Shown one piece after another: positions 20,393 to 22,291 of a stretch of 64,000 nt of DNA; the first letter of the stretch is position 1; each line of letters starts with the position of its first letter. A model generated the notes under the pieces. It was not told the origin of the DNA. It saw nothing but the letters and a program-made list of their open reading frames with translations, and did not search any database. The translations under genes and the position numbers were made by a program. The stretch is taken from assembly GCA_900065925.1 (NCBI GenBank), contig LN890280.1, positions 1,170,451 to 1,234,450 on the forward strand. Direction: 5' to 3'. This stretch comes from Nitrosotalea devaniterrae. GTDB taxonomy: Archaea > Thermoproteota > Nitrososphaeria > Nitrososphaerales > Nitrosopumilaceae.

Positions 20393-21175
20393 TTACTTGT
20401 CGTGCTGTTCACCATCGTATGCATCTTCACTACTTTTCTTTTTGACTACCTTTTGCTTTGATGAGCCTTCATCTTTTATGTACGTGTCATATGTACGATA
20501 CACCTGTCGTATTGTTTTTAGGTATGATTCAAAGTCAGGAAGTTTTATGGGTTCGTAAAAATAATTCATGTGAACCTTGGTCAGGTTGTTCTTTGATATT
20601 CCCACACCTTCAAGCACATGGATTGGCTTGCTGTCAACAGAGTGCACCCAGCCAAGAGACCTGATTTTTTCCACCATCTCCTCAAAGTGGCCTGTTTCAT
20701 TTGTTACTATTCTCAAGATAAAGTCATAGTTTTGTCCCTCTCCTTGGACCACATCAATTGTTGTAACAATTCCATACTCTCGGCTGATTTCTACTAGATT
20801 GTTATACATCTCAGAGTAAGGAATTACTCTTCTTTCAAAGAGTGGATTTTGTGTTTTGATAAAAGTATACCATTGGTTATCAAACAGTTTGCTTGGATCA
20901 ACTAGAATCCATTTTATTTTATCATCACGTTTGCTGTCTGCACTGTTGTTATGCTCCAGTATGACTCCTTTTTTTACTAGGTCTTCTATTCTTCCCTTGA
21001 CGTTTTCTCGTGATAACACATAGCCGTGTTGTTCAAGTTCCTTGTTTGCAGTGTCAGGAGTAGCACCGCCTTGTAAAACTTGTAATATCAATACATCAAG
21101 TGGACTAATGTTATTTTTTGTAAGATTCTTCATTGGGATTGCGCCCTCTTGGTTATCTGTTCCTCTGCCTACCAT
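20393..21175 (-). CDS. Winged-helix transcriptional regulator
   Basis: This 260-aa protein has an N-terminal winged helix-turn-helix at ~20-85 (SPLDVLILQVLQGG, ENVKGRIEDLVKKGVILEH). Two ligand-type alpha/beta domains follow (RREYGIVTTIDVVQ-like and MVEKIRSLGWVHSVDSKPIH). The layout recalls archaeal Lrp/AsnC-like proteins. ATG 21175 is preferred over the TTG at 21184. It precedes the methyltransferase gene by two bases and may control it. The effector is unknown. Confidence 0.75.
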   Translation of the reverse strand: MVGRGTDNQEGAIPMKNLTKNNISPLDVLILQVLQGGATPDTANKELEQHGYVLSRENVKGRIEDLVKKGVILEHNNSADSKRDDKIKWILVDPSKLFDNQWYTFIKTQNPLFERRVIPYSEMYNNLVEISREYGIVTTIDVVQGEGQNYDFILRIVTNETGHFEEMVEKIRSLGWVHSVDSKPIHVLEGVGISKNNLTKVHMNYFYEPIKLPDFESYLKTIRQVYRTYDTYIKDEGSSKQKVVKKKSSEDAYDGEQHDK

Positions 21176-21320
21176 GATGAACAAGGTCTCATACTATTAT
21201 TAAAAACATTTACTACATTTTTGTCGCAAAAATGTTAAAACGCCAATTTATCAGGCATGGCCATTTAGAATCATTCGTAGAATAAGGCCACATTTTTGCA
21301 GCAAAACATGCTCTAATCGA

Positions 21321-21328
21321 TTTATAAT
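21321..21328 (+). promoter_or_regulatory. TATA-like box for the AN1 gene
   Basis: TTTATAAT lies about 24 nt before ATG 21348, consistent with a leaderless start. If no other promoter exists before 21659, this transcript would also run through the ribozyme-like element. Confidence 0.55.
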
Positions 21329-21347: not shown

Positions 21348-21575
21348 ATGACAGCAATACCAGCAGTCGAAAAAACAGAGACCGCAAAATGCAGCACCTG
21401 TGCTTGCGACTGTGCAAAACTATGCACCCAATGTGGAAAAAACTTTTGCACCAAGCACTTGATCGGACACGCAGAAAAATGCACCGGATACAAGTCAGTC
21501 ATACAAAAAATACTTCGAGATGACATGACTGAAATTGTTAAGCAAATCATGGAGGCAGTGCTAAAAACGATATGA
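21348..21575 (+). CDS. AN1-type zinc-finger protein (75 aa)
   Basis: Residues 14-46 hold an AN1-like finger: CSTCACDCAKLCTQCGKNFC, then THL..H..KC spacing (TKHLIGHAEKCTG) able to bind two zinc ions. The C-terminal ~30 residues are helical (SVIQKILRDDMTEIVKQIME). AN1 fingers mediate protein-protein contacts, in eukaryotes linked to ubiquitin and stress. The archaeal role is unknown. ATG 21348 is fixed by the promoter spacing. It may be co-transcribed with the secreted protein at 21659 across the ribozyme-like element. Confidence 0.88.
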   Translation: MTAIPAVEKTETAKCSTCACDCAKLCTQCGKNFCTKHLIGHAEKCTGYKSVIQKILRDDMTEIVKQIMEAVLKTI

Positions 21576-21586
21576 CCACTGTCAAA

Positions 21587-21632
21587 TCCCCTGAAGAGTC
21601 CGTGAGACCCGGACGAAACAACATTGTCGGGA
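21587..21632 (+). ncRNA. Candidate type I hammerhead ribozyme
   Basis: All core elements of a hammerhead ribozyme are present in order. Stem I 5' strand TCCC is at 21587-21590; CTGAAGA (CUGANGA core) at 21591-21597; stem II GTCCG/CGGAC at 21598-21602 and 21610-21614 with loop TGAGACC. GAA is at 21615-21617. Stem III ACA/TGT is at 21618-21620 and 21625-21627 with loop ACAT. The cleavage nucleotide C is at 21628, giving the classical GUC site, and stem I 3' strand GGGA is at 21629-21632. Predicted cleavage between 21628 and 21629 would leave a 30-nt leader with a Shine-Dalgarno before the ATG at 21659. Stem III is short, which is a weakness; activity is untested. Confidence 0.8.
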
Positions 21633-21640
21633 GAAAACTA

Positions 21641-21647
21641 GGAGGTG
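21641..21647 (+). promoter_or_regulatory. Shine-Dalgarno of the secreted protein gene
   Basis: GGAGGTG lies 11 nt before ATG 21659 and 12 nt after the predicted ribozyme cleavage site. It would remain on the 3' cleavage product. Confidence 0.65.
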
Positions 21648-21658
21648 AAACATAGAGA

Positions 21659-22291
21659 ATGAATGGAACCAAAATACAGCTAGTCCTTGCAATTAGTGCA
21701 GGATCACTGCTACTTAGTGCAAGTTACTTGGGGTTTGCATGGGCTGATACTGGTCAGGATTCTTTAGGTGGCATAAACATCAAGGCAAGCAATGCAATAA
21801 AGAATGACCCAGCAGCAATGAAGATACTATACAACATAGAACTCTTCAAGCAACAATATGCAGCTCAGCAAGCAAAGCAAGATTTGCAGAATCAGCAGCA
21901 ACAGTTGATTGATCAGCAGCGAAAACTTGCAAGCGAATACTTGCAAGCAGACTTGGCAAAGACCAACAACCAAAACGACATGAGCAATCCAACAAATGCA
22001 TATGCAGGCTTTGTAAGCAAAGTCGATACATCTGCACAAGGAGTATTCATGGACGAGTTTGCATACATGCAAGCAAAAGTTGCACAGGGAAAACTTGCAA
22101 TGAACCAAGTATTGCAGAATGGTGGCTCACGCGATCAAGCACTAAATGCATACTATAATGGCGCTGCAACTCAGATGACAGAATTGGTAAGTGTCAACAA
22201 GGTAACTAATGTCAAGTATCACCTTGCAGATACAACAACCCAAGACCTGTTCAACAAGTACGGGAACTTGAAAAAGTACTCGGCATCATAG
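21659..22291 (+). CDS. Secreted Gln-rich coiled-coil protein
   Basis: This 210-aa protein has a signal peptide (VLAISAGSLLLSASYLGFAW then ADTG) and a mature helical body with a Gln-rich coiled coil (EFT: QQYAAQQAKQDLQNQQQQLI). It has no Cys in the mature part and no C-terminal anchor, so it is probably exported or periplasm-like. No recognised family. Its leader contains the hammerhead-like element and a good Shine-Dalgarno, which is unusual in a genome with many leaderless genes and points to post-transcriptional control. Confidence 0.75.
   Translation: MNGTKIQLVLAISAGSLLLSASYLGFAWADTGQDSLGGINIKASNAIKNDPAAMKILYNIELFKQQYAAQQAKQDLQNQQQQLIDQQRKLASEYLQADLAKTNNQNDMSNPTNAYAGFVSKVDTSAQGVFMDEFAYMQAKVAQGKLAMNQVLQNGGSRDQALNAYYNGAATQMTELVSVNKVTNVKYHLADTTTQDLFNKYGNLKKYSAS

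Follow-up and report, generated by a model that had tools for sequence, protein, structure and literature searches.

For hammerheads in prophage and phage DNA, a role in cleaving long phage transcripts has been suggested (Perreault et al. 2011, PMC3088659), and the cellular function of prokaryotic hammerheads has been called unresolved (PMC6155905). Like the element considered here, from the soil ammonia-oxidising archaeon Nitrosotalea devaniterrae, the phage examples are flanked by genes of the same direction and frequently lie shortly ahead of a start codon; the subtype of the Nitrosotalea element is also found in IMG/VR contigs. However the phage elements occupy mobile or viral DNA with changing neighbours, as do many of the known prokaryotic hammerheads, whereas the Nitrosotalea element is present once, in the chromosome, and has the same neighbours throughout two genera. 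For the archaeal haloviruses HF1 and HF2, the HHphage ribozyme is found 13 nt upstream of the start codon of a helicase gene, and an mRNA 5' end has been mapped to within 3 nt of its cleavage site (PMC3088659). This too is an archaeal system with a ribozyme close before a start codon, but it is viral, carries insertions in its core and is located at the 5' end of an operon and not between two cellular genes. With such a halovirus case on record, the hint in the original prediction that an archaeal hammerhead positioned for leader processing would be without precedent was too strong.

At least three archaeal hammerheads had been reported in 2011 (Perreault 2011, PMC3088659), likewise in archaeal genomes, with no Nitrosotalea case named. 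The hammerhead class as such is known, and the new part appears to be a vertically inherited chromosomal archaeal copy in a defined operon. In the literature examined no link between Nitrosotalea and ribozymes was found, and overlap with computational work on hammerheads in archaeal genomes, reportedly carried out by Gupta and Swati in 2016, is not excluded. With the family RF00163 (Hammerhead_1) the Nitrosotalea element shares the core, the three stems, the open stem I and the NUH site; it differs in its score, which is below the gathering cut-off, in a conserved loop II of the form GUGARANNC and, for the copy described here, in a very short stem III.

The hammerhead element and its recognition by models

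The window, that is the whole stretch of DNA analysed, comprises 64,000 nucleotides of the N. devaniterrae genome and contains the element between two genes of the same strand (Table 1). Read base for base the hammerhead order is UCCC, CUGAAGA, GUCCG-UGAGACC-CGGAC, GAA, ACA-ACAU-UGU and C^GGGA, so that the complete type I hammerhead originally predicted at 21587-21632 is present in each of its parts. The core CUGANGA ... GAA with an A15.1-U16.1 pair closing stem III is that of a type I hammerhead, the topology of three helices with an open-ended helix I (and covariation in all three) is that of type I, and the cleavage triplet is of the NUH kind, being GUC in 19 and GUA in 5 of 24 orthologs, with G never found at H17. 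Loop II (GUGARANNC) and the A-rich flanks of stem I are conserved also, and no tertiary contact between stem I and loop II could be shown.

Table 1. Coordinates of the ribozyme, its parts and the surrounding operon features, numbered along the window
Feature	Position	Strand	Support or remark
Type I hammerhead ribozyme, whole	21587..21632	+	Rfam RF00163 match, ortholog conservation, covariation, leave-out model
Stem I, 5' strand UCCC	21587..21590	+	Partner is GGGA, 21629-21632; covaries across families
Catalytic core CUGAAGA (C3 to A9)	21591..21597	+	Invariant in 24/24 orthologs except N7
Stem II, GUCCG 21598-21602 with CGGAC 21610-21614, loop UGAGACC 21603-21609	21598..21614	+	Loop conserved as GUGARANNC; compensatory changes (two pairs inside the clade, more across families)
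Core GAA (G12, A13, A14)	21615..21617	+	Invariant
Stem III, ACA 21618-21620 with UGU 21625-21627, 3 bp, loop ACAU	21618..21627	+	A15.1-U16.1 invariant
Predicted cleavage site, C21628 (H17) / G21629 (5'-OH)	21628..21629	+	GUC triplet; cut inferred
First cistron, 75-aa Cys/His protein with AN1-like zinc-finger spacing	21348..21575	+	Invariant Cys/His; Pfam zf-AN1 below cut-off
Second cistron, 210-aa protein, N-terminal signal-like segment, mostly helical	21659..22291	+	Orthologs >50% identical in exactly the 24 ribozyme genomes
TATA box TTTATAAT	21321..21328	+	20-27 nt before first-gene AUG
30-nt leader of the 3' product, SD AGGAGGUG at 21640-21647, AUG 21659	21629..21658	+	Layout constant in 14 loci
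Operator-like palindrome, copy 1, TTTTTGTCGCAAAA	21218..21231	+	4 copies genome-wide, 2 here
Operator-like palindrome, copy 2, TTTTTGCAGCAAAA	21293..21306	+	Upstream of operon promoter; recognisable in most orthologs

The covariance-model check that had been proposed for the element came out in its favour. RF00163 matches 21587-21632 over its full length with 27.6 bits (E 9.4e-5 over the 1.8-Mb genome), and this is the sole hammerhead match genome-wide. An Rfam scan of the window at gathering level returns no entries, the 27.6 bits not meeting the cut-off of 34 bits, which reflects curation and is no structural criterion. As a leave-out test, a covariance model was trained on archaeal and viral sequences from outside Nitrosotalea alone. 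It too has this element as its one match in the genome (52.5 bits, E 1.3e-11) and recovers all 24 orthologs, with the reservation that its training sequences were themselves reached via a Nitrosotalea model. Because the RF00163 match is unique in the genome at its E value, the leave-out model agrees and the element is carried by 24 of 24 orthologous leaders, a chance match can be set aside. As judged from sequence, 21587-21632 is a genuine type I hammerhead, chromosomally fixed in Nitrosotalea-type archaea, for which catalysis is inferred.

Conservation in Nitrosotalea and its sister genus

A search of 61 genomes with RF00163 alone, which preceded any custom model, found orthologously placed matches, lying between the same pair of genes, in four congeners; three of these four were the top-scoring matches of that search. 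RF00163 matches outside the orthologous place (L005-L008, L010-L014) were treated as chance. The ortholog set itself was found via the secreted protein encoded by the second gene, at a threshold of >50% identity, and not via the RNA; it comprises 24 genomes, 20 of the 37 in Candidatus Nitrosotalea and 4 in the sister genus. The hammerhead is present at the same position in all 24 leaders. When the family's 250 genomes were searched with a covariance model built from these leaders (R1), exactly the same 24 came back and no further site was convincing. Weak R1 matches of 20-23 bits in other Nitrosopumilaceae lacked an intact core where inspected (L073, L078-L083) and were put down to chance, and the leaders of two more distant paralogs (L039, L040) contain no hammerhead.

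In the 24-row alignment the core, which had been expected to stay unchanged in close relatives, is invariant except at N7 (A, C or U), and H17 is C or A only. N7 and H17 are the two positions at which hammerheads tolerate variation. The alignment of orthologous leaders also bore out the suggestion that the stems might covary, with three covarying pairs within the clade, including compensatory changes from C-G to U-A at two pairs of stem II, and RNAalifold, unaided, gives the same hammerhead fold from this alignment. A stem III of only 3 bp, as first described, is correct for the source genome and is not so for many orthologs, which have 4-6 bp; the range is 3-6 bp, the window copy being the shortest of the set. 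Paired and core ribozyme positions are 93-100% identical to the window, against 24-84% at the four-fold degenerate sites of the downstream gene, and by this comparison the ribozyme is under measurable selection. The neighbours of the locus are conserved across both genera, which indicates vertical inheritance and not mobility. Congeners without the locus also lack the neighbouring regulator-like gene, and within the genus the first gene is present only where the ribozyme is.

The two-gene locus and what cleavage may do there

The gene upstream of the ribozyme had been called an AN1 zinc-finger gene, of which the AN1-like spacing survives: C15, C18, C26, C29, C34, H37 and H41 are invariant in 13 orthologs. 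The family assignment does not, since the Pfam zf-AN1 model (PF01428) gives 9.5 bits against a cut-off of 27.9, so that the protein can be termed AN1-like only, though its Cys and His residues are invariant. For the secreted protein a Pfam search returned no family above cut-off, and its structure model, of low confidence (pLDDT 47), was not used for a fold search. The TATA box just upstream of the AUG of the first gene (GATTTATAATTT) is identical in 14 of 14 loci, and its distance to that AUG implies that the first cistron is near-leaderless. No other TATA-type match occurs in the interval that begins 400 nt upstream of the ribozyme and ends 40 nt beyond it, leaving none between the genes, which does not amount to excluding a weak internal promoter. 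Across the 14 loci examined the operon layout is constant, with 8-12 nt from the cleavage site to the SD and 19-30 nt to the first AUG. With one conserved TATA box upstream and none between the genes, the locus is best read as giving a two-gene mRNA that the ribozyme cuts. The idea that a dicistronic mRNA is split, leaving a 30-nt leader that keeps its ribosome-binding site, thus finds support in the one TATA box, the layout shared by 14 of 14 loci, the synteny and the placement of viral hammerheads, with co-transcription and the cut itself inferred.

Two copies of a palindrome (TTTTTGNNGCAAAA) precede the operon and adjoin a divergent regulator-like gene (20393-21184, minus strand), where 0.08 copies would be expected in the window. 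That the genome holds only four copies suggests a putative operator.

In the proposed pathway a single promoter upstream of the zinc-finger-like gene would give one mRNA spanning this gene, the secreted-protein gene and the ribozyme between them, and the ribozyme would fold on leaving RNA polymerase and cut after C21628. The upstream message would then have the folded ribozyme and a 2',3'-cyclic phosphate at its 3' end, and the secreted-protein message would start with a 5'-hydroxyl and a short 30-nt leader with its ribosome-binding site intact. A 5'-OH end is protected against decay that depends on a 5'-monophosphate, and a structured 3' end with a cyclic phosphate against 3' exonucleases. 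From such background on hammerhead chemistry and RNA decay, each product should gain a stability independent of the other, and the likely benefit would be independent stability and translation of the two messages. That an active hammerhead processes a dicistronic mRNA is held here with high confidence. It builds on features that are directly observed (sequence, conservation, covariation, genome uniqueness, the single promoter signal and the constant layout), and the catalysis, co-transcription and effect on expression that it includes are inferred, without cleavage or RNA 5'-end data. The 3-bp stem III, the Rfam score below the gathering cut-off and an energy calculation that does not favour stems I and III (see below) count against it. 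As there is only one copy, with constant neighbours, one promoter signal and selection that can be measured, the role of the ribozyme is directly testable.

A different emphasis would make the cut mainly a switch, whereby the folding state, or a ligand or protein, gates release of the secreted-protein message or exposure of its ribosome-binding site. The ribozyme does lie just upstream of the SD, and folds of single sequences offer an alternative pairing of core bases with cleavage-site bases, yet in the five GUA variants, all with the hammerhead retained, this pairing is by inspection disrupted, and the stretch between the genes shows no additional conserved domain resembling an aptamer. The predicted accessibility of the SD hardly differs between uncleaved and cleaved RNA, for which reason a switch by SD sequestration was rejected, and a switch of any of these kinds is considered unlikely.

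Still less credence is given to a decayed, inactive relic of a viral hammerhead, kept as a mere spacer or stem-loop. In its favour, proviral and viral operons often contain related ribozymes, and the window copy, with the shortest stem III, has a minimum-energy fold that is not the hammerhead: in a nearest-neighbour calculation the hammerhead reaches -9.9 kcal/mol against -14.9 kcal/mol for the minimum, stems I and III not being favoured. The nearest-neighbour energy model ignores non-canonical contacts of the core and tertiary docking, and the folding energy of the region is not unusual (z 0.35), which is uninformative as a significance test. Against a relic, all core bases are kept in 24 genomes despite synonymous divergence and the cleavage base is confined to the C/A set. 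A conserved leader element other than a ribozyme, such as a terminator or a protein-binding hairpin resembling a hammerhead by chance, can draw on stem II alone being the thermodynamically strongest element, but is hardly tenable when the invariant positions are those of the hammerhead core, the variable ones are N7, H17, the loops and covarying pairs, and independent hammerhead models recognise it.

Relatives in other archaea and in viruses

Searches with models R1 and R2 also detect related hammerheads outside the family, both within the same order and in members of the phylum that are further removed. Some lie between cellular genes for exported proteins (L104, L105, L107, L117), and in L119, from another archaeal family as are L104, L107 and L117, a hammerhead is likewise placed between exported-protein genes; the gene downstream is ethylbenzene-dehydrogenase-like in L117 and encodes a phosphoesterase in L119. 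Others belong to the head and tail operons of proviruses, where they are found before a tail protein (L106, L109), before head proteins (L108), directly after the major head protein (L120) or upstream of the head maturation protease (L116). One candidate (L111 in G352, 24 bits) was without a proper core and apparently coding, and was rejected as a hammerhead. Among 17 archaeal sequences double-sided changes occur in 11 of 15 pairs, with 36 double-change cells against 9.3 in shuffled controls, and for archaeal and viral sequences taken together without Nitrosotalea the figures are 69 and 16.4.

Some core variation is seen among these relatives. In L113:4458-4526 (minus strand) and L114:373-441 (plus strand) the core pair C3-G8 is replaced by U3-A8, with a U3-G8 intermediate in L110:4216-4284 (minus strand), and all three are upstream of a gene for a small CxxC protein and a gene of 973-979 aa that by eye is formate-dehydrogenase-like. 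Natural hammerheads with U3-A8 are known and active, and a U4C change, present in the core of L107, is known from a viroid (PMC3088659).

A pattern of the core plus loop II, for which fewer than one chance match is expected in IMG/VR by the authors' own estimate, matches at least 120 IMG/VR contigs, and R2 gives 154 hammerhead matches in 100 of the pattern-matched loci. An SD and ATG start fall within 82 nt of the cleavage site in 54 of 71 distinct viral hammerheads (median 31 nt), as compared with 16% of random places, the usual position being some 30 nt ahead of the start codon. With the hammerhead models of Rfam 15, nothing exceeded the gathering score in the 11 viral loci scanned, and none of the deeper relatives scanned reached it. 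In the archaeal and viral loci scanned the Rfam cut-offs thus miss this subtype, which is common in archaeal proviruses and IMG/VR viruses.

On balance the evidence leans towards a viral-type hammerhead domesticated as a permanent cellular mRNA-processing device, long held at one chromosomal place and uncoupling two co-transcribed genes, with similar ribozymes doing the same in secreted-protein operons of several other archaeal families. A direct viral origin of the Nitrosotalea copy was considered and rejected, since phage records gave no match at the DNA level and IMG/VR none to the exact pattern, the subtype alone being shared.

Several type I hammerheads occur in tandem in the IMG/VR loci L156, L205 and L138, with eight in the stretch from L156 and another eight in that from L205, as though the message of each gene were cut free.
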